A stretch of 64,000 bases of DNA, taken from NCBI RefSeq assembly GCF_026000775.1, contig NZ_AP026830.1:1449056-1513055 (forward strand), in the 5' to 3' direction. The stretch is from Vulcanisaeta souniana JCM 11219. GTDB taxonomy: Archaea > Thermoproteota > Thermoprotei > Thermoproteales > Thermocladiaceae. A program made the position numbers and the translations under genes. Positions 1,659 to 15,423 of this stretch are shown here, piece by piece (the stretch's first letter is position 1; the number at the start of each line of letters is the position of its first letter). A model generated the notes under the pieces. That model saw only the letters and a program-made list of their open reading frames with translations. It ran no database searches and was not told the origin of the DNA.

Positions 1659-2729
1659 CTATAATTCCGCCAGTACATCGACTAATTTTTTTATGGCATC
1701 TAGGTGTGCTATGCATGTTTCTTTTTTCTTTAGGAATTCTACAATTTCTCTAGTAATGTTGTATATATTATCTTTTATTGTATTATTGATTATTGCTTCG
1801 CTTAATTCTGCGAGAATGATAGGCCCGTCTTCATTCTTAAGGAAGCAATCATTAAGGATTCTCGGCCATTGCGGTATGTGGTACTTAATGTCTGAGATAG
1901 CTTTCAATAATCCCTCTATATTAATCTGGATATAATTTGGTATTCTCATGAAGTTTCCACTCTTTTCATAGATCCATATTAGTGCATCCATGTTTTCGAA
2001 TGCGTAGAGGGTTTCTCCAAAGGATAATACTATTAATGGTGCTGCGAGGATTGGTATATCTAGGTTAAATTCGTTATACCTATGTTCAAATGCCCTTTGC
2101 ACCAGCACGATATCGATTAAATCAGCCTTAACGGACGGGATTAATGTAACCATTATTGAGCTAATTCTATTGCCCTTATTGACCCTTAGCACAAATGATC
2201 CGTAGGCGAGACCCATGTTAGCCATTAGGAAGCAGGTGGGACATATTGTATATTGTACATTTTCCTTAACTACGTAATCCCTACTGAGGTATTTGCCGTA
2301 AATGGGGCCTAACGGTAGGTATGCCGTTGGATTTACCCTGGATGATCTCCTGCCCTCATTACTGTTTGCTGCATGGTTTATGTCTGTGTAAGTTTTTATT
2401 GATTTGAATGCCGTAATTGATTGGCTTAATGATCTAACCCATGCAGGAAATGCCGGTTCATTAACATTTGATGCCCAAACCTTCCTAAGGAATAAACCAA
2501 TGGCTTCTATTTTTTCAATCGTTGACCTACATTGTCCCTGCAATCTAACGAGTTCTTTCACCGCTTTGTTCTCATCTACATCTTCGTTAACGATGATCCT
2601 AAACCTCTCGCCAATCCTCTCCACGGAACCGCGCCTAGCCCCCGCCCAAACCAAGTACCTAACCATGCCATGCATTATCAACGAATCCGTGACCAGGTTA
2701 TGCCCCGGCGTATAAAGCTCAAGGGGCAT
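1659..2729 (-). CDS. cas8a2: Type I-A Cascade large subunit Cas8a2 (Csa4)
   Basis: 356-residue protein, the size of the Csa4/Cas8a2 family, which is the large subunit of the archaeal I-A interference complex and helps recognise the PAM. The N-terminus PLELYTPGHNLVTDSL and the central CPTCFLMANMGLAYGSF segment match my recollection of the family. It is the last gene of the csa5-cas7-cas5a-cas3'-cas3''-cas8a2 operon and overlaps the end of cas3'' by 11 nt, so it is probably translationally coupled. Identity rests mainly on position in the operon and length; sequence conservation in this family is low. Confidence 0.8.
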   Translation of the reverse strand: MPLELYTPGHNLVTDSLIMHGMVRYLVWAGARRGSVERIGERFRIIVNEDVDENKAVKELVRLQGQCRSTIEKIEAIGLFLRKVWASNVNEPAFPAWVRSLSQSITAFKSIKTYTDINHAANSNEGRRSSRVNPTAYLPLGPIYGKYLSRDYVVKENVQYTICPTCFLMANMGLAYGSFVLRVNKGNRISSIMVTLIPSVKADLIDIVLVQRAFEHRYNEFNLDIPILAAPLIVLSFGETLYAFENMDALIWIYEKSGNFMRIPNYIQINIEGLLKAISDIKYHIPQWPRILNDCFLKNEDGPIILAELSEAIINNTIKDNIYNITREIVEFLKKKETCIAHLDAIKKLVDVLAEL

Positions 2730-3540
2730 TACCCATCACCTTGTTAATAGCGTCCTTAATTTCATTAATATCCACTGGCTCCGCACCTTTAGATACTCTC
2801 TCGACTATCCAATTTCCCTCATCCTTCATATCTCCGCTCCTAAGTACATTGGCAGCGATGGAATCTGCCAGTGTTATTAAATGGAGCACTGACGCCACCC
2901 TGGCTCTACGTATGAGCAGGTCCTCTAAAGGACCCACGCTCGCCCACGCAATCATATCCTTAATTGAATATATTATGTCATCAATTTTAATACCGTCGTT
3001 TAACCAATGGTCTATAAACTCCATAATATCATTCACGAACTCATCATTAATAAGTCCTTTTCTTACTAGGAAGTTCTTTAATAGTTCATTAAACGTTCGC
3101 TTAACGTCACAATTAGGCTTAAGTTTGTCCTTAAATGTATCGAGTATCCTCCTAATGTTACTTATTGTTAAGTACCTCTCACCTAATTCACCTACGTATA
3201 CCCCCATTAGGATATTTTCATGATGAAGAGTCACAGCCAATGAGAGGATCATTTTCACATCCTCAGGCCTTTTCCCGAGAATTTTATACATGGCATAGCC
3301 ACTAAATATTTCGTGCCTAAAGTTCCTGGGACTCATCTCATACGCGTTTGTAAGCTTCCCAAGGTCATGAATAGCCAAGGCCACGGCTATTGGGTCGAAT
3401 TCTAACTTCCCTAATACCCTATCCAATACCTTCTCATAATAAGGCTTAATGACGCTCCAGGCTGCCACAGCCGACTTTATATGATTTTCATACCTCTCTA
3501 CCTTCCCCTCCTTATTATATGAATAGCAGATATTCATCAA
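2719..3540 (-). CDS. cas3'': CRISPR-associated HD nuclease Cas3''
   Basis: 273-residue stand-alone HD nuclease of type I-A. In these systems the Cas3 nuclease and helicase are separate proteins. The HD-domain metal ligands are visible: H20 (YENHIK), H58-D59 (AIHDLGK), H76 (NFRHEIFSG) and H106-H107 (LHHEN). It cuts the single strand exposed by Cascade and unwound by the helicase Cas3'. It sits 4 nt downstream of cas3' and overlaps cas8a2. The start could be the first or second of two adjacent ATG codons. Confidence 0.9.
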   Translation of the reverse strand: MMNICYSYNKEGKVERYENHIKSAVAAWSVIKPYYEKVLDRVLGKLEFDPIAVALAIHDLGKLTNAYEMSPRNFRHEIFSGYAMYKILGKRPEDVKMILSLAVTLHHENILMGVYVGELGERYLTISNIRRILDTFKDKLKPNCDVKRTFNELLKNFLVRKGLINDEFVNDIMEFIDHWLNDGIKIDDIIYSIKDMIAWASVGPLEDLLIRRARVASVLHLITLADSIAANVLRSGDMKDEGNWIVERVSKGAEPVDINEIKDAINKVMGNAP

Positions 3541-3544
3541 ATCA

Positions 3545-5485
3545 TCACCTCTTACGACTCCTTCTACTTCTCTTCTTAGTTGTAACCTGTTGGCTTGGTT
3601 TAATTAACTCAGTATTTAATCCCATATAATGTTGATATATTTCTAAATTACCAGCTTCATCAAGTATTGCTATTAATGGTGGCGGGTTCCATAATAGGCG
3701 ATTTATTTCATTTTCGTTAATATTTTCGAATGCGAAAATATCGATATGCATATTCATTTCCTTAGCTCTATTAATAAGAATAATAGCTAACTCATCCCTT
3801 GCGTTAAATGTTAATAAGTATATGCTCTGAGAGGCAATATTTCCTAAGTTACTTATCAAATTCCGATACCTATTAAGTGGCTCCTCGCGTAATTCAGAGA
3901 TTGATAACTTAAACATGTTCATATGTATAGTGTTCTCGTCGCATAATATTCTTACTTTATTTCCTATCTCATAACGTATGCAGTGACCATTTTTTAATTG
4001 CGTTAAGACTTTATCTGTACTAATATTAGTGTCATAATGTATTAACTTATCAGCATCAAGTATAACGACCTCTACGTAATAAGATGGCCTTATTAAGAAT
4101 TCATATGTTTCCTCATCAGGTGGGTAGGCGAAGAGGTGTAAGTTTTCTAGGTAATCTATTGATTTATAGAAAAGTTCATCACCTTTGCTAGATATTTTCT
4201 CTACTAGGTCTCTTGTGTATACGTTGTCCAGTAAGCCTGATATGGCATTAACATCGCTAAAGTCAATGGTTTTTAGCCTATTAACCTGGCCGTGAGTCAC
4301 ATTAATTACTTCGTCGTTATAAGGTGCTGGGCTTTCAAGTTTTGTAAAAATGGTGACCTCACCTTTTATGCCCCTCCTACCTACCCTGCCTATTCTCTGT
4401 ATTAAGCTATCCATTGGCGATAATTCGGTGTACAGCTTATCAAAGGAGAAGTCAATACCCACCTCAATAGCCTGGGTTCCAACCAGGATAAAGCCAGTAC
4501 TTTTCCCGCTATTACGTAGATTCTCAGCATTGCTTATTTTCCTATATACCTCCTCTCTATCGCCTCTTGTCATTAATGAGTGTATGAGCACAACCTTACC
4601 TTCATCATCCTTATCGCACCTTTCTCTTAACCTAATATACGCATTGTACGCCCTATCCACGGTATTTAATATTACTATTGAGAAGTCGTTACATGATATC
4701 GTATCTATATTCTCAATTAACGATGCATCCACAGTATTAACGGCCACTTGACGTGCGGGTCCCTTAACTGTTATTTCCCTTACGTTATCATCACCACATA
4801 ATTCAATGAATTTCTCCTTAATTGACCCTGGTAATGTCGCGGTGGCGAAAATTACTAACCCGCCAGCCTTAACAATACTACAAATAACCCTGGCAAGCAC
4901 CCTGGGTCCTAGGAACGCCTCATCCTGTATTAAATGCGCCTCATCAAATATCACCAATGAATTCATTATTAACCCAGCGGGTAACGTATACCTACCTGTC
5001 TCAACTCCACGTTCCCTCCAGGCTTGAACTCTCTTAGTCACATAACCATAAACCAGCGTATCAACGGTGGTTAGGGTTATTGGTGCCGTGTATAGGAACG
5101 TCTTATTAATTACCTCTCCATGATCCTCGCCTATCTTCAATGATTTATTGACTAATTTAGCATAGATTTCCAGTCTATCCCTCATTTGCCTAAGCAATGC
5201 GTGCATCGGCTCAACCCAGTAAAGTCTACCTGCAAACCAATCCTTCGTACGCCACTGCATTAGGAATATGGAGGCCAGGATCTCCGTCTTACCGCTACCC
5301 GTTGGCGCCTTAAGAATTACTAGCTTGCCTTTATCGGCATTGTTTAATTCATTATATATGTCCTCAGCTACCTTGGCTTGGTTCCTTAGATACTCCTCAT
5401 TCACAGTACACCCATTCTTACCACGCTTTGCTGCACACCACTCAATTATGAAGTCTCTAATCAATTCTTCAAAGTTGGCATTCAC
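3545..5485 (-). CDS. cas3': CRISPR-associated DExH helicase Cas3'
   Basis: 646-residue superfamily 2 helicase without an HD domain. Walker A APTGSGKT is at 60-67, DEAH at 181-184, motif III is FATATLPG and motif VI is QRIGRVGRRG. The C-terminus ends in a basic KKRSRRSRKR tail. It unwinds target DNA during interference together with Cas3''. Its ATG overlaps the cas5a stop by 4 nt, which indicates translational coupling. Confidence 0.92.
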   Translation of the reverse strand: MNANFEELIRDFIIEWCAAKRGKNGCTVNEEYLRNQAKVAEDIYNELNNADKGKLVILKAPTGSGKTEILASIFLMQWRTKDWFAGRLYWVEPMHALLRQMRDRLEIYAKLVNKSLKIGEDHGEVINKTFLYTAPITLTTVDTLVYGYVTKRVQAWRERGVETGRYTLPAGLIMNSLVIFDEAHLIQDEAFLGPRVLARVICSIVKAGGLVIFATATLPGSIKEKFIELCGDDNVREITVKGPARQVAVNTVDASLIENIDTISCNDFSIVILNTVDRAYNAYIRLRERCDKDDEGKVVLIHSLMTRGDREEVYRKISNAENLRNSGKSTGFILVGTQAIEVGIDFSFDKLYTELSPMDSLIQRIGRVGRRGIKGEVTIFTKLESPAPYNDEVINVTHGQVNRLKTIDFSDVNAISGLLDNVYTRDLVEKISSKGDELFYKSIDYLENLHLFAYPPDEETYEFLIRPSYYVEVVILDADKLIHYDTNISTDKVLTQLKNGHCIRYEIGNKVRILCDENTIHMNMFKLSISELREEPLNRYRNLISNLGNIASQSIYLLTFNARDELAIILINRAKEMNMHIDIFAFENINENEINRLLWNPPPLIAILDEAGNLEIYQHYMGLNTELIKPSQQVTTKKRSRRSRKR

Positions 5486-6234
5486 CAGTCTTCACCACCA
5501 GGAAACACTATACTTGCACCATTAAGCCTGGCGCATAATGTGTCACCGCCATAACTCATCGTTGATGGATAATAAACGTCACCCCTCCTGCCGGATGTGA
5601 CAGGTAGTGCAAACATGGATTCAATACCCACCTCATCAGTGGCCTTAACTACTGTGAACCCACCGCTAATACGGTTTTGGTTGTACTTAACAATTACATT
5701 GATATTCCTATCATTGCATCTTTCCGCATCAGTAACAGTTACTGAAGTCGTGGATGCCCAAGACTCACTATTGCCAAACCTGCCCATTAGCCATAATGCA
5801 CGCTTCAACAAGTCAATGGAATCCTCATCTTTGGGTATTACCAATACGGTTCTTGGGTGTGACAGTGCGAATTCCCTAACCATCGCATCTAAAAACCCCT
5901 TAAATTCCTCAATATTTGTTGGCATTCTATTCTCCTCAAGTACGCCCCTAATTATATGCAGCACTAAACTCCACTTAACTATGGGTAGCTCACCATCTAT
6001 TATCGATGTATCGCGCGCCTTAAGTACGTGGTTCCTCGTAAAATCGAGACATTCCTTAACACGGTCACGCCATACCTGCCCCGATTTACCGCAATAGCCT
6101 AGTACAGAGAATGTATAGGATATGGTGCCTATTAGGGTTGATGGCGGAATTAACGGGTAAGAAACGGCCACCTGGTAGGTTTCGGGTATCCTTATGGAAT
6201 ACATAGGCATTATTTTAACAAGTAGGACCTTCAT
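5482..6234 (-). CDS. cas5a: Type I-A Cascade subunit Cas5a
   Basis: 250-residue Cas5 family protein. The N-terminal beta strand KVLLVKIMPMYSIRIP and the segment YPLIPPSTLIGTISY (a Cas5-type PP-T-L-G element) are typical of archaeal Cas5. It caps the 5' handle of the crRNA in Cascade. It lies between cas7, 9 nt upstream, and cas3', with which it overlaps by 4 nt. Confidence 0.88.
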   Translation of the reverse strand: MKVLLVKIMPMYSIRIPETYQVAVSYPLIPPSTLIGTISYTFSVLGYCGKSGQVWRDRVKECLDFTRNHVLKARDTSIIDGELPIVKWSLVLHIIRGVLEENRMPTNIEEFKGFLDAMVREFALSHPRTVLVIPKDEDSIDLLKRALWLMGRFGNSESWASTTSVTVTDAERCNDRNINVIVKYNQNRISGGFTVVKATDEVGIESMFALPVTSGRRGDVYYPSTMSYGGDTLCARLNGASIVFPGGEDW

Positions 6235-6243
6235 TGAAACCGC

Positions 6244-7287
6244 CTACTTGTGCTCCGTAACCATGTCCTCACCCTCCTTAATAACATCATTGAATAAATC
6301 CTTAAGATTATCGTGAACCTTCACAGACATGTTTTTAGGCACAGTAGAAGATTTGCATTCGCTTATTCCATAGCAATGAACGTGTACCTTGGCTTCATTT
6401 ACGATAGACGCGTAGGTCTCTAATATGGTGATTGATTGCTTAACATAGTCAGGGTAAGCACCATGTACCAGGTTAGGTATTGGTGCGTCGGAAACCACAA
6501 CAAGTAAATCATTCAATTTACTTATAGGCAACGAACGCGCTTGCTTAGAACCACTACCCATCAACATATTAAGGACCGCTAAAATTGATGCCCTGATCCT
6601 CCTCTTCCTCTCTTCATCAACATTCGCATTATTAGGTAAGTTTATAATACTGCCATTACCTTCATATCTAGGTCTCAAAACCCACCCAAGGTCCATGCTC
6701 ATGGCAAAGCCATATAAAGGCCCTGACACGTATTCCTGCTTAAACACCATCATACCTTCACTTTCTCCTTTTGTGACCTGCTTAGGAACAACCCTATTAT
6801 GCTGAACTGCAAACTTGACGACATTTTCAACATTATCGATAGTTAACACAGGTATGGCATGACTAACCTCAATAAGTGAATCCCTCTTAAGTTGCTTATC
6901 AGGTATCAAGAACCCATGTAAGTCATTACAAAGGTCAATTATGGCATCTTGCTCATTATCAGCAGAAGCAGATTTGAGAGAATCAGCATCCATTTTATTT
7001 ACAGTATATTTATATCCTCTTAATCCAACCCCATGCTTGCATAGAATATTTAATAATGAGCCTCCTAACTTCACGTACTCCTGAGCAAGATAAACAGCAT
7101 GCCAATGCTTAAGGGCATTTCCCGTAATTATGGATGCGCCATCATAAACCTTATATGTATTACCATCTGGAACAACTATCTTAGCGGTAGCCACCTGGTT
7201 ATAATTACCAATATTACCTGACCCAGTTAGGGCGGAAACCTCCACCGTAAATCTACCAGTAATCTTAACGTAAGGTGAATAGGCCAT
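6244..7287 (-). CDS. cas7: Type I-A Cascade backbone subunit Cas7 (Csa2)
   Basis: 347-residue Cas7/Csa2 protein that polymerises along the crRNA. The N-terminus AYSPYVKITGRFTVEVSAL is characteristic of the archaeal Csa2 family. I place the start at ATG 7287. A GTG at 7296 overlapping the csa5 stop (GTGA) is also possible and would add three residues. It is the second gene of the interference operon. Confidence 0.9.
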   Translation of the reverse strand: MAYSPYVKITGRFTVEVSALTGSGNIGNYNQVATAKIVVPDGNTYKVYDGASIITGNALKHWHAVYLAQEYVKLGGSLLNILCKHGVGLRGYKYTVNKMDADSLKSASADNEQDAIIDLCNDLHGFLIPDKQLKRDSLIEVSHAIPVLTIDNVENVVKFAVQHNRVVPKQVTKGESEGMMVFKQEYVSGPLYGFAMSMDLGWVLRPRYEGNGSIINLPNNANVDEERKRRIRASILAVLNMLMGSGSKQARSLPISKLNDLLVVVSDAPIPNLVHGAYPDYVKQSITILETYASIVNEAKVHVHCYGISECKSSTVPKNMSVKVHDNLKDLFNDVIKEGEDMVTEHK

Positions 7288-7292
7288 GGTTA

Positions 7293-7721
7293 TCACCCTA
7301 TACTTTTCCTTATACTTTCTTCACACTCTTTAATCTTAACCACGTTATTATCTGGTGCTAATGCATATGCCGCAAAGCGCTTTATTTCAATGTGCATATC
7401 CTTAACATTCTTAAGATAATTATACAATTCATCCTGTATCCTAAACCACCATTGTAATCCATTCATGACGTTAGTTATCACATTCCTACAATCATCCCTA
7501 TTCACCTTATTCTTAAGGTCATTGAGGTCGTTCAAAGTCTTGGTTACTAGCCTGGATATTTTAGATAATGCATCGACTAAGGTCTCGAGCTTAGGGTTGT
7601 TGGCCAGTTCATCAAGAATATCGTATGCTTGTTCACGGTGTATAACGATCCTCACGATATCAGCGGCACTCTTCACATAGTCTCTAGCCTCTTGGGAAAT
7701 CGATTGTTGGTTCATATTCAC
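7293..7721 (-). CDS. csa5: Type I-A Cascade small subunit Csa5
   Basis: 142-residue helical protein in the position of the I-A small subunit Csa5 (Cas11 role), first gene of the interference operon. Family sequence conservation is low, so the call leans on size, helix content and context. The start is GTG 7721 or ATG 7715. Both lie about 25-30 nt from a TATA element at 7742-7751, which favours a leaderless transcript. Confidence 0.78.
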   Translation of the reverse strand: MNMNQQSISQEARDYVKSAADIVRIVIHREQAYDILDELANNPKLETLVDALSKISRLVTKTLNDLNDLKNKVNRDDCRNVITNVMNGLQWWFRIQDELYNYLKNVKDMHIEIKRFAAYALAPDNNVVKIKECEESIRKSIG

Positions 7722-7740: not shown

Positions 7741-7752
7741 GTTTTATATATG
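7741..7752. promoter_or_regulatory. Shared TATA element of divergent csa5 and csa3
   Basis: The A/T block GTTTTATATATG reads as a TATA box on both strands. On the minus strand it lies about 25 nt before GTG 7721 of csa5. On the plus strand it lies about 27-30 nt before ATG 7777 of csa3. The divergent start codons are only 55 nt apart, so one TBP site, or two fully overlapping ones, may serve both genes. Confidence 0.6.
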
Positions 7753-7776
7753 TTTTCCTTAGATGCTTCTCAATTT

Positions 7777-8577
7777 ATGGAGAAGTTGAGTGTTAAGAAG
7801 TGCGTGGTGGTTAGTGTTGGGCTTTATCCAGGTAATGCGAAGCATGCATTGGCTAGGGCCGGGCCTGTGGGTGGTGATGTGGTTTTTCTCGTGAATAGTG
7901 AGCCTAGGACTGTGCCTGAGGAGGTGCTTAGGGGTGGTAGGAGGAGGCAGCCCATGGATACCATGGAGGCTATTCACAGTTTTATCAATGAGTTGGATAG
8001 CGAGATTAATATTGTTGATGTTTGGCTTGACCCGAGGGACGGCCTTGTAACCAGTGTGGCCAAGCTCAGGTCGCTCATTGAGGGTTATGCTCCGTGTAGG
8101 GTCATTATTGGTATGGCTGGTGGATTTAGGTGGCTTAGTACGGCATTGATGTTCCTGGCCCTTGCCCTGGTCTCTGTGGGTCCTTATGTGGGTATTACAG
8201 TGGATAGTGTCTTCGCAATGCTTGAGGAGGAGAGCCCATCAGTTAGGGCCTTGTTTAGGAGCGTTGAGGAGAGGGTTATTCCCTGGCCCGTGATACCCAG
8301 GTTAGCTGACTTAGCGTTCGATGAGTACAGGGTTATTAGGCTAATAGGCCTTGGTAGGCATAGGGCTAAGGACATATTGAACGAGTACAATAAGGACTGT
8401 AAGAAGGTGAGTGGTTGCATGTCCATGGCCAAGATACAGAGAATACTCGTGAAGCTCGTTAGGAAGAGACTGATTAAGTATGAGAAAAGGGGTAAAGCGC
8501 ACCACTATGAATTAACGCCGTTGGGCATGATGCTCGTGGGTATAGTAAAACCCAGCAAGGCAGTTCATGAGACTTAG
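7777..8577 (+). CDS. csa3: CRISPR-associated transcriptional regulator Csa3 (CARF + winged HTH)
   Basis: 266-residue Csa3-like regulator. The N-terminal CARF (Rossmann-like) domain starts with KKCVVVSVGLYPGNAK and continues through CRVIIGMAGGFRWLS. The C-terminal winged-helix part includes KIQRILVKLVRKRLIKYEKRGKAHHYELT. In Sulfolobus, Csa3 proteins bind ring nucleotides and activate or repress cas genes. I choose ATG 7777 rather than ATG 7750 because 7750 lies inside the TATA box. The gene is divergent from csa5 and reads toward the array leader, so it may control both. Confidence 0.85.
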   Translation: MEKLSVKKCVVVSVGLYPGNAKHALARAGPVGGDVVFLVNSEPRTVPEEVLRGGRRRQPMDTMEAIHSFINELDSEINIVDVWLDPRDGLVTSVAKLRSLIEGYAPCRVIIGMAGGFRWLSTALMFLALALVSVGPYVGITVDSVFAMLEEESPSVRALFRSVEERVIPWPVIPRLADLAFDEYRVIRLIGLGRHRAKDILNEYNKDCKKVSGCMSMAKIQRILVKLVRKRLIKYEKRGKAHHYELTPLGMMLVGIVKPSKAVHET

Positions 8578-8869
8578 GTCTAAACACGTAATGCATGGTC
8601 GTTGGAAGATCCATGTTATTTAGAAACTGAACATAACAACCAAATCAAATAATCAAGAAATGGAAAATCATGAATAACATGAAATCAATGTTCATAGGAA
8701 CAGGTACATTAATGAGTAACTGAATGTAAACAAAGGAACAATAACGAAACCACCAAATAAACCATAGGAATAAGAACGCATCATAAATGTTCGTGAGCAT
8801 AAACGTTCCAATAATTAACTTACCCGTATGAAGAAAGATTTATAAACAACCTTATAATTATACGTATCG
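8578..8869 (+). promoter_or_regulatory. CRISPR leader
   Basis: This A/T-rich, gene-free 292-nt stretch lies between csa3 and the first repeat and contains several CAAATAA/AACCA-like runs. The end is assigned as leader because the opposite, last repeat is degenerate and because a promoter points into the array. New spacers are expected to enter at its border with the repeat at 8870. Confidence 0.75.
8833..8846 (+). promoter_or_regulatory. Array promoter (BRE/TATA)
   Basis: GAAAGA (8833-8838, BRE-like) followed by TTTATAAA (8839-8846) forms a good archaeal promoter. The expected start site 24-28 nt downstream falls at about 8867-8870, the first base of repeat 1, so pre-crRNA would begin almost exactly at the array. 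Confidence 0.65.
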
Positions 8870-10926
8870 GATATTCTCTAAAGAGAATAGAAGGTTACCC
8901 CTCATTACCATAGCATCGTAGAACGCTTGCTTAAGATATTCTCTAAAGAGAATAGAAGGCCTCTAGCAATGTACTTATTCCAATTCTTTTTAGCGGACAG
9001 ATATAGTGATATTCTCTAAAGAGAATAGAAGGTGGGATGGTGAACCAAGTTACATAAGGGCATTGAAGGGATTGTATGATATTCTCTAAAGAGAATAGAA
9101 GGAAGACTGCTGGGTAGCAATACGACGTGTATGTGCTGAAGTACGATATTCTCTAAAGAGAATAGAAGGATTGGCGTGGAGGTTAGGAACACGGACATTG
9201 TGCTGCCCAGATATTCTCTAAAGAGAATAGAAGGATAGTTCATTCAACATTTCAATTAATTTGTCGTCACGGTAGTGCGATATTCTCTAAAGAGAATAGA
9301 AGGATAATTCATAAAGCATATCCATCAGCTTATCATCTCCATAACGCGATATTCTCTAAAGAGAATAGAAGGGGGATATGTCGCCCAATGGCGTTAGTTC
9401 ATTGACGTCTCCTCTTGATATTCTCTAAAGAGAATAGAAGGTTAGTCACGGATAATTTCTGCGTCGCGTAACGCAGCGTGATTAATAAGATATTCTCTAA
9501 AGAGAATAGAAGGACCCTATGTACGCCAATTCCTTAAGCGGGATTGTAATCCCAGATATTCTCTAAAGAGAATAGAAGGAATGGTGATGTGACGTATTAC
9601 GTGGATTACACGGGTTCAGATATTCTCTAAAGAGAATAGAAGGTCTTTCCAATCCTAATAACGAGACTCGTTATTTTGTTCATTAAGATATTCTCTAAAG
9701 AGAATAGAAGGGTTGAAGTGATCATTCATGGTGGTTGTGGATTGCTGTGGCTTGATATTCTCTAAAGAGAATAGAAGGTGGTTGAGGACAGTGATGGGGA
9801 GAGAGCCGTGGGGTTCGTATTCAAGATATTCTCTAAAGAGAATAGAAGGTTGCGTTCGCCGTGATTTTTTCTTTAATGGCGTTGAGGTGATATTCTCTAA
9901 AGAGAATAGAAGGTAATAATCATTGCGACTTTACCCTCAAGGTTACCAACCCTGGATATTCTCTAAAGAGAATAGAAGGTAAGTGCGAGTCTGCCTATCC
10001 GTACTTCCACGTTTCCGCGTGATATTCTCTAAAGAGAATAGAAGGTTCTGATCACCACCTTATCAATCCAGTAGGTAATTCTTACGATATTCTCTAAAGA
10101 GAATAGAAGGACACACTACCCAAGAAAGAGCTCTACAGACTCTACGCCAGTCACAGGATATTCTCTAAAGAGAATAGAAGGAACTCCCTGCCCTCAACCA
10201 CGGCGTAGACAAGCAATGCGAAGATATTCTCTAAAGAGAATAGAAGGGAATACGTACGGTGTCACGTAGATGATGTAGACGATGCCATTCCCAGATATTC
10301 TCTAAAGAGAATAGAAGGAAGCCCAAGGTGAAGCATTGATAGGACCGACCTACGAGTCTGATATTCTCTAAAGAGAATAGAAGGTCGCTGAAAACCTTCT
10401 TTGGCTTACCAACCCACTGAGGCATTACCAAGATATTCTCTAAAGAGAATAGAAGGTTCCCTATTCAGCTCACGTTTTCTTTCGTAATTAATGAGATATT
10501 CTCTAAAGAGAATAGAAGGTGTGTTGGAGGTGATTGAGTTGAAGACGCTCTTCAGTGAGCTTGATATTCTCTAAAGAGAATAGAAGGATGAGTGATTGCA
10601 CATTAGCTACTGATACAATACCCTCTTCGATATTCTCTAAAGAGAATAGAAGGAAGATCATTGCCGTCATAACGCTTACTAGGGATAATAAGCATCCAAT
10701 GATATTCTCTAAAGAGAATAGAAGGGTGGGAGTTTGCCCTCTATAATGAATGTTTTGTATTTTGTGATATTCTCTAAAGAGAATAGAAGGATAAATCTCC
10801 GTGAGCAAACCCACATTCACCAGAAACGCAATAAGATATTCTCTAAAGAGAATAGAAGGTCATAATCAACGCGGAGTTCAGCGGATCGGCAGCGGCTCAA
10901 GATATTCTCTAAAGAGAATAGAGAGG
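8870..10926 (+). CRISPR. CRISPR array, 31 repeats and 30 spacers
   Basis: The 25-nt repeat begins GATATTCTCT and ends GAATAGAAGG. It starts at 8870, 8935, 9008, 9078, 9145, 9210, 9279, 9348, 9417, 9489, 9555, 9619, 9687, 9754, 9825, 9889, 9955, 10021, 10086, 10157, 10223, 10294, 10360, 10432, 10495, 10563, 10629, 10701, 10766, 10835 and 10901. Repeats 1-30 read as identical; the last ends GAGAGG instead of GAAGG. Spacers are 38-48 nt. The repeat holds a palindrome (ATTCTC, TAAA loop, GAGAAT), and the predicted 8-nt crRNA handle is ATAGAAGG. Transcription is from the 8870 side. Many spacers keep an open frame that reads like protein. Confidence 0.98.
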
Positions 10927-10938: not shown

Positions 10939-11514
10939 TTAGGGCGGGCATATATCCTTGAAGTAGCAGGCTTTGCATTTTGCCTTGTTTGTGGTTTTTG
11001 GTGGTGGTTCTTGGTTTTGTATGTGTTTTCTCATGTCCTGTATCGTTCTTTCTGTCCATTTTCTTAGGTTTGGAGTTGGTCTTATTGTTATTGTTGTTTC
11101 TTTTTCTTGGTTTATGATTATTATTTTATCCACGGTAACCTTCATTGTTTCCTCAAGGGCCATTGCATATGCTGTTGCCTGTGCCAGTACGTGGCTATAC
11201 CTTGTATATAGTTTCTTTTTATTCCCTATATTCAATTTTGCCTCTATTATTACTGCCCTGTTTTTATTCACTACCACGGCATCTACCCTGCCCACTATGC
11301 CGAGTTTTGCTGATTTCACGGGCACCTCTAGACTTACCTCTCCCTCTATTCCCTGTTCTCTTATGGACTTTATTACATTCTCCGTATTTGATACCTGCTT
11401 CGCATACTTCATGGACTCGGTTGGTGGTTCCTTCATTATCATTATCTTTAGGTATGCCTGTCTTGGGCAGTAGGTGTATTCCTTTATCATGCTTATTGGT
11501 ATGTAGTCCATCAT
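10939..11514 (-). CDS. cas4: CRISPR adaptation nuclease Cas4
   Basis: 191-residue Cas4 of the RecB-like PD-(D/E)XK family with a 4Fe-4S cluster. Cluster ligands are C16 (YTYCPRQAYLK) and C180, C183 and C189 (CKACYFKDICP). Nuclease residues are D78 (GRVDAVVV) and E91/K93 (IIEAKLN), followed by the Q-x3-Y motif AQATAYAMALE. It trims prespacers and helps select the PAM. It overlaps cas2 by 4 nt and is the last gene of the adaptation operon, ending 12 nt from the last repeat. Confidence 0.93.
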   Translation of the reverse strand: MMDYIPISMIKEYTYCPRQAYLKIMIMKEPPTESMKYAKQVSNTENVIKSIREQGIEGEVSLEVPVKSAKLGIVGRVDAVVVNKNRAVIIEAKLNIGNKKKLYTRYSHVLAQATAYAMALEETMKVTVDKIIIINQEKETTITIRPTPNLRKWTERTIQDMRKHIQNQEPPPKTTNKAKCKACYFKDICPP

Positions 11515-11786: not shown

Positions 11787-12782
11787 TTAGAACACCCAAG
11801 TGAAGCACTCGTAATCCTTCACATTACCATCCCTAATCATTGAGGCTAGGTACCAAGCCTCGTGTTTCATTATCTCGGTTAGTGATGATTTTCTACTTGT
11901 TCGTGGATTTATGTAGTCCCTGTTTAGGTTATTGAGTATTAACCTGGCCACCGCCTTCCTTGAGTCGTAGTCCAGGAAGCCGTTAATTATACTTAGTTTT
12001 ATATTGTCTGCATCGATTATTAATGCCTTATCCACGGCTACTGGCCTAAATACCTCAACGGTGTCGAAGACCAGTGATGGCTTCCCGCTCTTTATTGTGT
12101 GGAGCACGCCTAGGTATGGGTCCAATCCAGCCATTATTAGGTATCTTTCCATGGTTGAGTAGAGTATTCCGTAGCCGTAGTTTAGGGCTAGGTTCACTGG
12201 GTCAGTACCCTCTGGGTCTCTGCCGTGGAACCCCAATTGGCTTGGCAATAGTGACGCCACTACGTCCCAGTACTTATTGGCTGCCTGTGCCTCGATGCCC
12301 TCAATAACCTCTGGGTTTAGCTTACTGGTTTCCATGGATATCAGTTGCGTTGTCATTGATGATATTGAGTAGGCAATGTCATTTAGCGCTGGTTCCCTAC
12401 GGCTCTTGGCGAAGTACCTGACAAGCCTTGCCTGGTTCTCAATCTTACATGCAATTAGTCTGCGGGCTAACTCAAGTCTCAATTCATGGTTTAGGAATAA
12501 CTCGTATTGCTTAACCCTAGTCATTACGGTCTTGTTAATAACCGGCGGTAGCATTGTTACCACGGGGTCTCCAAATGAGTTTAGGAGGACTAGGTTTATG
12601 CCCTTCATGGCCAGGATCCCAATTGCCTTTGTTGTTATTGAGGCCCTTGATGTTGCGATTATTACCTCCTCCGTGTTTGGCGGCAGCACCTGCTTGTTTC
12701 CGTCTTTGCCTATTATTATCACTGAACCCTTCCTGACGATTATCCTCGTCCCTGGGTCTGTTATGTATACTTCGTTAACCAT
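11787..12782 (-). CDS. cas1: CRISPR integrase Cas1
   Basis: 331-residue Cas1. Catalytic residues appear as E164 (EAQAANKYW), H228 (DPYLGVLH) and D240 (SLVFDTVEVFRP), with the family motif NLALNYGYGILYS between. I chose ATG 12782, which gives MVNEVYITDPGTRIIVRKG, the usual first strand of Cas1. An earlier in-frame ATG at 12869 would add 29 unlikely residues that overlap csa1. The chosen start overlaps the csa1 stop by 8 nt. Confidence 0.95.
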   Translation of the reverse strand: MVNEVYITDPGTRIIVRKGSVIIIGKDGNKQVLPPNTEEVIIATSRASITTKAIGILAMKGINLVLLNSFGDPVVTMLPPVINKTVMTRVKQYELFLNHELRLELARRLIACKIENQARLVRYFAKSRREPALNDIAYSISSMTTQLISMETSKLNPEVIEGIEAQAANKYWDVVASLLPSQLGFHGRDPEGTDPVNLALNYGYGILYSTMERYLIMAGLDPYLGVLHTIKSGKPSLVFDTVEVFRPVAVDKALIIDADNIKLSIINGFLDYDSRKAVARLILNNLNRDYINPRTSRKSSLTEIMKHEAWYLASMIRDGNVKDYECFTWVF

Positions 12783-13578
12783 GGCAGACACCATAGAATG
12801 GGCAGGTCTTCGGGCAAGAACTTGCTGGTCCTGGGTCATCTCCATGCTCAATGATTCTAGCCACATCATCCCTCATGTCTAGGAAGGCCCTCCTCAATGT
12901 GTCGTCTATCTTAACTACCCTCCAGGTGAATCTTAGTTTGCCGTTAATACTTATGTGGAGTACTATGCCGATGTCCACTGGGTGGCCGATCCAGGCCTCT
13001 ATGGCTAGTGCATATGCCGTAACCGCTATATCCTTCCTGCTAATTAATTCCTCCGTTGGTGATGAGGTCACTAACTCCATTGGTATGAATCCTACGAGTA
13101 TGTCTGGCTTAACGACGTCGGAGAGGCCAATTGGGGCGCCTGGTATTGATGGTTCAACGCTGGTTGGTATTCCTTCATCGCGGGCATTGAGTGCCAAGGT
13201 AATTGCCTTGGTGTAGATTTCATAGAGCTGCGTCTTGTACTTATTACCTAGTTCACCGTAGTCATTTAGGATATTCTCAAACCTACTGTCTAGTTGAGAG
13301 AGCGGTATTGATTCCCTAAATGGGGCTAGGAAGATCTCGTGAATTAATCTACCGAGCCTTAGGATCTCCGTGTCTTCCATGGGTATTTTAGCAACACGCC
13401 TTAGGTACGCGTCGCGTTTTGTTGGGCATGGTGATGAGACCTCGGACACCGTTGGCCTAACCGAGTGCCTCGGCGCAACTGGGTCCCTAAACCAGCCTCT
13501 TAATTCGGCGTATGATCCGCCCTCCATTATTGTCCTAATATAGTCCCAAACCCACCTGGGTAGCACCATATGCTTCAT
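12775..13578 (-). CDS. csa1: Csa1, Cas4-like Fe-S protein of type I-A adaptation
   Basis: 267-residue Csa1 (Cas4-related). Likely Fe-S cysteines are in SSPCPTKRDAYLRR near residue 50 and in the C-terminal CPKTCPFYGVC. The nuclease-like core has SDVVKPDIL and then PMELVTS. The lysine of the usual E-x-K motif appears replaced, so activity may be lost or differently placed. It is the first gene of csa1-cas1-cas2-cas4. A weak TATA-like GAATAAAAC lies 15-25 nt upstream on the minus strand. The start could be ATG 13578 or ATG 13569. Confidence 0.85.
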   Translation of the reverse strand: MKHMVLPRWVWDYIRTIMEGGSYAELRGWFRDPVAPRHSVRPTVSEVSSPCPTKRDAYLRRVAKIPMEDTEILRLGRLIHEIFLAPFRESIPLSQLDSRFENILNDYGELGNKYKTQLYEIYTKAITLALNARDEGIPTSVEPSIPGAPIGLSDVVKPDILVGFIPMELVTSSPTEELISRKDIAVTAYALAIEAWIGHPVDIGIVLHISINGKLRFTWRVVKIDDTLRRAFLDMRDDVARIIEHGDDPGPASSCPKTCPFYGVCHG

Positions 13579-13728: not shown

Positions 13729-13968
13729 TTGGTGATTTACTTGACAACTACGGTAATCAGCGTCAGGGTTAGGGAGGAGGTTAAGAGATTGCTTGAGGAG
13801 GGTGGTATTGATGTTAATGAGGAGGTTAGGAGGTTCCTTGAGGACCTTGCGTTGAAGGTTAAGATTAGGAGGTATGTCTCCATGTGGGATGAGCTGTTGG
13901 AAAATATTAAACCGAGTGAGGAGGGGTTTTCAGTGGGCTCTGTGAGGGAGGATCGTGAGGGTCATTGA
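13729..13968 (+). CDS. vapB: VapB-type antitoxin (ribbon-helix-helix-like)
   Basis: 79-residue protein. The N-terminal TTTVISVRVREEVKRLLEEG followed by a helix (VNEEVRRFLEDL) looks like a ribbon-helix-helix DNA-binding fold, and the acidic tail would wrap the toxin. The start is TTG 13729, GTG 13732 or TTG 13741; a TATA box at 13696-13703 favours the first two as leaderless starts. It overlaps vapC by 14 nt. Confidence 0.75.
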   Translation: MVIYLTTTVISVRVREEVKRLLEEGGIDVNEEVRRFLEDLALKVKIRRYVSMWDELLENIKPSEEGFSVGSVREDREGH

Positions 13969-14347
13969 CTCATCAGCCCTTATAAAGTACTTCACCCGCG
14001 AGACCGGTTGGGAAAGGGTTAGGGATTTAATGTTGGATGGCGTGATGACGGTTGATTTAGCCATTAAAGAGGTAGCGAATGCACTGTGGAGGAAGATTAT
14101 CAGGGGCGAGGTGGACTATAATATCGTACTTACCATCATGAGGACCTTACTTGAGGAGGCCATACCAATAATTGATCAAAGAAAGTACGTAATAAGGGCC
14201 CTTGAACTTGCCGTGAAGTACAGGATCACTGTGTACGATGCAATATTCATAGTACTAGCCCTGGAGCAAAATATGGAACTTATAACCAGTGATGATGCCC
14301 AAGCTGATGTGGCTGGGAAAGTCGGTGTTAGGGTAATCCTAGTTTAA
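13955..14347 (+). CDS. vapC: VapC toxin, PIN-domain ribonuclease
   Basis: 130-residue PIN-domain protein. Acidic active-site residues are visible at D5 (VIDSSALIKYF), E39 (AIKEVANALW), D95 (VYDAIFIVLA) and D113/D114 (ITSDDAQA). VapC proteins cut tRNA or rRNA when VapB is lost. It starts with GTG inside the end of vapB, so toxin synthesis is coupled to antitoxin synthesis. Confidence 0.88.
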   Translation: MRVIDSSALIKYFTRETGWERVRDLMLDGVMTVDLAIKEVANALWRKIIRGEVDYNIVLTIMRTLLEEAIPIIDQRKYVIRALELAVKYRITVYDAIFIVLALEQNMELITSDDAQADVAGKVGVRVILV

Positions 14348-14397
14348 TGCGTTATTTCATGCATAGACCCAATAATGTGCTTGGTAAGGGATATAAA

Positions 14398-14432
14398 ACT
14401 GGTGTTCCACCAGTTACTGGTATGTCACCAGT
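14398..14432. promoter_or_regulatory. Tandem inverted repeats at the start of the ATPase gene
   Basis: Two adjacent inverted repeats of the same motif: ACTGGTG-TTC-CACCAGT (14398-14414) and ACTGGT-ATGTC-ACCAGT (14416-14432), centred 18 nt apart. They sit just after a TATA-like GATATAAAA (14390-14398) and cover the expected transcription start and the ATG at 14422. This looks like a repressor operator. Confidence 0.6.
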
Positions 14433-15423
14433 TTCCTGCGGATTCTTTGACACTAGGCCTAAGGTTAGTAGGGATTTTGTATTTGGTAGGGATGATGTGA
14501 TTAATGAGGTTGAACGCTTATTGAATAGCGGCTTTTGGCCTGTCATTCTTGGTCCTAGGAGGGTTGGTAAGACTACGGTTATGAGGGTTGTGATTAATGA
14601 ACTCGGTGGTATCTATATTGATGTATCAACAATAATGGGGCTTAAGGGCCTTGGACTTAGGCTCATTGATGAGGTTAAGAGACTGAACATTAGGGTTAAG
14701 CTTAACCTAGCCATGCTTCAGTTAGATATTGAGAGAAGGCCCATGGTAATTATTGAGGGCTTGATCAGGGAGTTGGGCGATGTTGTTATTGGTATTGACG
14801 AGGTTCAGAACATAATTAGTCCGAAGCTTCCCTCTCTTCTCTCCGTGGCTTATAACGAGTCCAGGGTTAGGTTTATCTTTAGCGGTTCTCTCGTTGGTAC
14901 CACACGCCTAATAATGAAGAGCCCCGAGTCCCTGGGCAGACCATTGATTAGATTTGAGCTTAGGCCCTTCACCAGGGAACAGTCCATTGAATTCCTGAGA
15001 ATTAGCTCGAGGAACTGTGGCATTAATATTAGTGACATCGAGATTGAGAATGCAGTAAATGAATTTGACGGCATTGTTGGTTGGTTAACGTACTACGGAA
15101 GTCTCAGGTCGAGTGGTAAGAGCCATCCAGAGGCCATGGAGGCCCTGAGGAGCATTGCCAGGGAGGTTATTAAGGATGAACTCAGTAAGTTGGGCAGGTA
15201 TGAGTTAGTTACTTACAGGGCGTTGGCCACGTTGAGTAGGGCCAGGTGGATTGAGATTAAGAGACTTGCTGAATCCCTAATTGGGCATTCAATAGATGAT
15301 AAGACCTTCACCACGGGCCTAAAGGCCCTGGTTAACATGTACATGGTTAGGGAAGTTGAGCGAGGTATTTACGAGGTTATTGATGGATACATGGCCAGGC
15401 TAGTCCGTGAATACGGTGTTTAA
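14422..15423 (+). CDS. Archaeal AAA+ ATPase (Arch_ATPase family)
   Basis: 333-residue ATPase with Walker A LGPRRVGKTT, Walker B VVIGIDEVQNI and the FSGS sensor (RFIFSGSLVG), followed by a winged-helix-like C-terminus. It belongs to the expanded archaeal ATPase family found near mobile or defence genes; the substrate is unknown. I place the start at ATG 14422 because the family usually begins near FFDTRPKVSRDFVFGRDD and a TATA box lies 25-30 nt upstream. An earlier ATG at 14347 overlapping the vapC stop (TAATG) would add 25 residues encoded by the inverted repeats. Confidence 0.82.
   Translation: MSPVSCGFFDTRPKVSRDFVFGRDDVINEVERLLNSGFWPVILGPRRVGKTTVMRVVINELGGIYIDVSTIMGLKGLGLRLIDEVKRLNIRVKLNLAMLQLDIERRPMVIIEGLIRELGDVVIGIDEVQNIISPKLPSLLSVAYNESRVRFIFSGSLVGTTRLIMKSPESLGRPLIRFELRPFTREQSIEFLRISSRNCGINISDIEIENAVNEFDGIVGWLTYYGSLRSSGKSHPEAMEALRSIAREVIKDELSKLGRYELVTYRALATLSRARWIEIKRLAESLIGHSIDDKTFTTGLKALVNMYMVREVERGIYEVIDGYMARLVREYGV

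Follow-up and report, generated by a model that had tools for sequence, protein, structure and literature searches.

Two neighbouring spacers of a type I-A CRISPR array in Vulcanisaeta souniana JCM 11219 are homologous. They lie in identical register on the same strand and differ in a way that reflects constraint at the protein level. It is likely that spacer 7, and then spacer 6, were acquired in separate uptakes from the same position of two diverged, homologous gene copies carried by mobile elements. The pair is an ordinary, well-supported CRISPR record; it is expected in kind, and by itself it indicates no new mechanism.

The window (the whole stretch of DNA analysed, 64,000 nucleotides) is part of the 2,432,148-bp single-contig genome of this hot-spring archaeon. 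The array is flanked by a complete I-A interference operon upstream and by cas4, cas1, and csa1 downstream, as follows:

1659..7721, minus strand: type I-A interference operon (PADLOC, E 8e-27 to 5e-79 over its genes)
1659-2729, minus strand: cas8a (PADLOC)
2719-3540, minus strand: cas3'' HD (PADLOC)
3545-5485, minus strand: cas3' helicase (PADLOC)
5482-6234, minus strand: cas5a (PADLOC)
6244-7296, minus strand: cas7/csa2 (PADLOC)
7293-7721, minus strand: cas11a/csa5 (PADLOC)
7750..8577, plus strand: CARF-domain protein of the Csa3/CasR kind (PADLOC CARF3 E 1.9e-72, CasR E 2.5e-12), a probable regulator
8578..8869, plus strand: probable leader at its putative position, AT-rich and non-coding, with a TATA-like TTTATAAA near 8848
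8870..10926, plus strand: CRISPR array of 30 identical 25-nt repeats (GATATTCTCTAAAGAGAATAGAAGG) and 30 spacers of 38-48 nt
9235..9278, plus strand: spacer 6, 44 nt, reverse complement encoding HYRDDKLIEMLNEL
9304..9347, plus strand: spacer 7, 44 nt, reverse complement encoding RYGDDKLMDMLYEL
10901-10926: degenerate terminal repeat at the 3' end of the array
10939..11514, minus strand: cas4, adaptation (Pfam Cas_Cas4, E 4.7e-15)
11787..12869, minus strand: cas1, spacer integrase (Pfam Cas_Cas1, E 6.3e-63; PADLOC Cas1)
12775..13578, minus strand: csa1, second Cas4-family nuclease (Pfam Csa1, E 1.8e-58)

Direct repeats of 24-25 nt between unique spacers, together with the nearby Cas8a, Csa5, Cas7/Csa2, Cas5a, Cas3', and Cas3'' identified by PADLOC, assign the array to type I-A; of the adaptation set cas1, cas4, csa1, and cas2, the first three were identified beside it by Pfam. 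With an AT-rich stretch preceding repeat 1 and a degenerate repeat closing the array on its 3' side, the leader would lie at the 5' end. By this polarity, spacer 1 would be the newest and spacer 30 the oldest; spacer 7 would be the older and spacer 6 the newer of the pair. Two further loci lie close to the cas genes. By the adaptation genes (13955-15423), a gene for a PIN-domain protein is directly followed by one for an archaeal AAA ATPase. An ATPase bordering the cas operon (82-1095) is akin to those of several candidate defence systems, with NsnB as the best PADLOC match (E 1.3e-14).

The coordinates, 44-nt lengths, peptides, and zero offset given for the pair in a first-pass annotation were all exact. 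The DNA likeness, put there at about 60-65%, was measured as 28/44 (63.6%) at offset 0. Shuffled sequences gave 12.0 identical bases (s.d. 2.9), none of 200,000 shuffles reached 28, and the binomial P for a single comparison is 1e-7 to 6e-7. For a wider background, four relatives within the genus contributed 143 spacers, from seven arrays whose repeat is identical or almost identical to this one; together with the present array, this makes 173 spacers and 14,878 spacer pairs. Spacers 6 and 7 are the second-best pair in about 650,000 whole-length comparisons at all offsets and on both strands. On DNA identity alone, about 0.1-0.4 chance matches this good are expected over the whole 173-spacer search, and this line of evidence is not overwhelming by itself. 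The equal length of the two spacers is a mild coincidence, 44 nt being found in 4 of the 30 spacers of the array.

The homology is settled by the coding evidence, which goes beyond DNA identity. The 16 differences fall on codon positions 1, 2, and 3 in the numbers 5, 1, and 10, with an excess at third positions (P = 0.0025) and a deficit at second positions (P = 0.003); spacer positions 11, 17, 20, 23, 26, 29, 32, 35, 38, and 41 differ in a three-base rhythm. On the sequence evidence, this is the pattern left by coding sequences that diverge under protein-level selection. On the minus strand the two peptides share 9 of 14 residues in the same frame, as had been claimed; with 16 mismatches placed randomly, at least 9 identical residues in any stop-free frame occur with P = 0.0024. 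The differences had been described as mostly synonymous or conservative. By a Nei-Gojobori-type count, 10 of the 16 are synonymous, the 7.2 synonymous sites are saturated, and pN/pS is about 0.12; three of the five residue changes (H/R, R/G, I/M, E/D, and N/Y) are conservative. The peptides score 45 in BLOSUM62, while every other pair but one reaches at most 35 over 535,608 frame comparisons. The full-length likeness at zero offset and the codon-periodic differences identify a single site, and the codon periodicity and the protein score bear out that part of the first-pass interpretation in which the two spacers share a site, a strand, and a phase in homologous coding sequence.

Only two of the 14,878 pairs stand clearly above the background at the protein level: spacers 6 and 7, and a pair from two other species with a score of 74; all remaining pairs score at most 35. 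The second pair consists of spacer 6 of a minus-strand array in genome G015 (L060) and spacer 2 of an array in genome G020 (L064). They are identical at 36/44 bases end to end in opposite orientation. In one frame they encode [KR]MVPVLPGNEIHDG, the peptides being alike at 13/14 residues, and six of the eight differences are at third positions. As read from its codons, this pair is a second homologous coding target site.

The uptake of spacers 6 and 7 probably proceeded as follows. The local type I-A adaptation machinery (Cas1, Cas4, and Csa1) would have taken up spacer 7 and later spacer 6, each from one position in two homologous, diverged copies of one protein-coding gene. A conserved PAM and conserved flanks may have fixed the spacer ends, and the sources may have been related elements met at different times. 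The target is probably a protein-coding gene of a virus or plasmid. The I-A systems of Sulfolobales measure their spacers with an imprecise ruler that starts from the PAM end (PMC4390879), so identical 5' ends would be expected if the PAM was conserved; the I-A PAM of Thermoproteus tenax is CCN (PMC4390879). On the coding strand, the two 44-nt sequences finish with CTAT or TTAT, and a CCN PAM would appear there as NGG in the three bases that follow. The spacers are antisense to the strand that encodes the peptides, and thus the crRNAs could pair with the target mRNA. A bias of 60% to such an antisense orientation has been reported for I-A spacers (PMC8482600). Counting against separate uptakes, re-picking of an exact site is rare a priori; for Sulfolobus, I-A uptake has been reported as essentially random, with thousands of protospacers to choose from (PMC4390879). 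The neighbouring positions of the two spacers, which a random pair in the array would occupy with a chance of 29/435 (6.7%), weakly support events linked in time.

Both spacers might instead come from one element in which the gene has a paralogue or a domain is repeated, in one infection or in two by that element. This origin seems rather unlikely, although it predicts an identical homology signature and the same adjacency would suit events that followed closely on each other. It also counts for this origin that gene families are often found in crenarchaeal mobile elements. However, a single element would need two copies that are about 64% identical at the site and that each kept the PAM.

Primed uptake had also been proposed as the route. 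In this case, the crRNA of spacer 7 would have partly recognised a diverged relative, from which spacer 6 was then acquired. The spacers differ at only one of their first eight positions, which makes weak recognition conceivable, and spacer 6 would have been added directly after spacer 7. Against this, 16 of 44 positions are mismatched. Priming normally samples other positions, and its protospacers lie away from the priming site, whereas spacer 6 sits on the putative priming site itself; moreover, a review found no evidence for priming in the I-A systems of Sulfolobales (PMC4390879). Priming is thus possible but disfavoured, and we consider it improbable here.

Tandem duplication of a repeat-spacer unit, followed by drift of one copy, is very improbable. 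Such duplications are known within archaeal CRISPR loci (PMC4390879), and the two units are neighbouring and of equal length. However, drift would ignore the codon positions, contrary to the third- and second-position biases (P = 0.0025 and 0.003), and the spacer would carry 16 changes while the repeats on either side stayed unchanged. The repeats around spacers 6 and 7 are all identical, which indicates no drift in the array. Chance likeness of unrelated spacers can be practically dismissed: the 0.1-0.4 DNA matches expected among 173 spacers at all offsets do not account for the neighbouring position, the zero offset, the codon periodicity, or a protein score far over the background.

Separate uptakes from diverged homologues can be compared with known systems. 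In hot-spring Synechococcus mats, variants of a viral lysozyme/lysin occur at a spacer site (Heidelberg et al. 2009, PMC2612747). As here, one protein site is targeted by CRISPR, with nucleotide identity down to about 70% and peptides 75-100% identical; there the variants came from viral reads compared with a single spacer, whereas here two diverged versions adjoin in one array. The I-A adaptation systems of Sulfolobales and T. tenax (PMC4390879; PMC5815122) carry the same genes as those identified here, their spacer ends are PAM-anchored, and Cas4 trims prespacers at the PAM. Their uptake has been reported as nearly random with few repeated sites; in contrast, one site would have been used twice here, from diverged copies. 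In Legionella type I-C (PMC5071653), one protospacer was acquired twice independently, as proposed here, but the experiment was on priming and the source a single plasmid sequence, not diverged homologues in one natural array.

The two spacers define the conserved peptide [HR]Y[RG]DDKL[IM][ED]ML[NY]EL, whose gene, under separate uptake, was met by the host lineage at least twice in diverged form. The suggestion that it provides a 14-residue probe is valid, but no relative was retrieved from IMG/VR, the GTDB genomes, the phage records, or the 81 whole genomes from the class. In IMG/VR, four degenerate codon patterns, each less strict than the last, matched 0, 2, 29, and 96 stretches; the ones inspected were either unrelated phage proteins or matches by chance. 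In GTDB, a pattern matched two Bacteroidota sequences of one protein family, and their upstream sequence was different. When 45 genomes from the order and 81 from the class were scanned with a profile of the two peptides, only the array itself rose above noise. An apparent alanyl-tRNA synthetase match (HYRTTDDKLIEMKN in L096) required a two-residue insertion (E 0.08 per genome) and was rejected. Blastn searches of the phage records with each spacer, and with the complete spacer set, gave short matches only (E at least 0.02). A SIRV match to spacer 6 had an E of 3 and lay on the wrong strand for the annotated gene. X-padded peptides found nothing by tblastn (spacer 6 only) or in PHROGs (both), two methods that are weak at 14 residues, and direct scans of TTSV1 and PSV stayed at shuffle level. 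For no spacer of the array was a protospacer found in the phage records or in 25 genomes of the family; a conserved PAM, a viral or plasmid source, and repeat infection are accordingly inferences here. Patterns from spacers 3 and 17, and the peptide of the G015/G020 pair, matched no IMG/VR contig, and thus no PAM could be derived from them. Once viruses or plasmids of this host have been sequenced from hot springs, the element could be recognised by the peptide, and the flanks could be used to test for reuse of I-A acquisition sites.

Tentatively, conserved flanks might set both ends of some I-A protospacers and make them acquisition hot spots, although we regard this as doubtful. In that case, Cas4 could define one end and Csa1 the other; the cuts in diverged relatives would fall at exactly matching positions, and the spacers would agree in length and register. 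The G015/G020 pair, whose spacers span one site over their full length in opposite orientation, would be another example.

Twenty further G020 spacers were added later. Spacer 11 of L064 (G020:C2) and spacer 10 of L204 (G020:C7) overlap in an identical 31-nt stretch on opposite strands, and so derive from one element or from two that are almost identical; the top protein score among other pairs with the added spacers is 39. Repeat sampling of one element region therefore occurs elsewhere in the genus. Among the compared genus arrays, spacers 6 and 7 are the only neighbouring, same-strand spacers that reuse one exact site. In a relative's array (L063, around 6104-6156), an 81.8% match (E 1e-3) to the Vibrio phages helene 12B3 and eugene 12A10 spans a repeat and the start of a spacer, and is probably due to chance.
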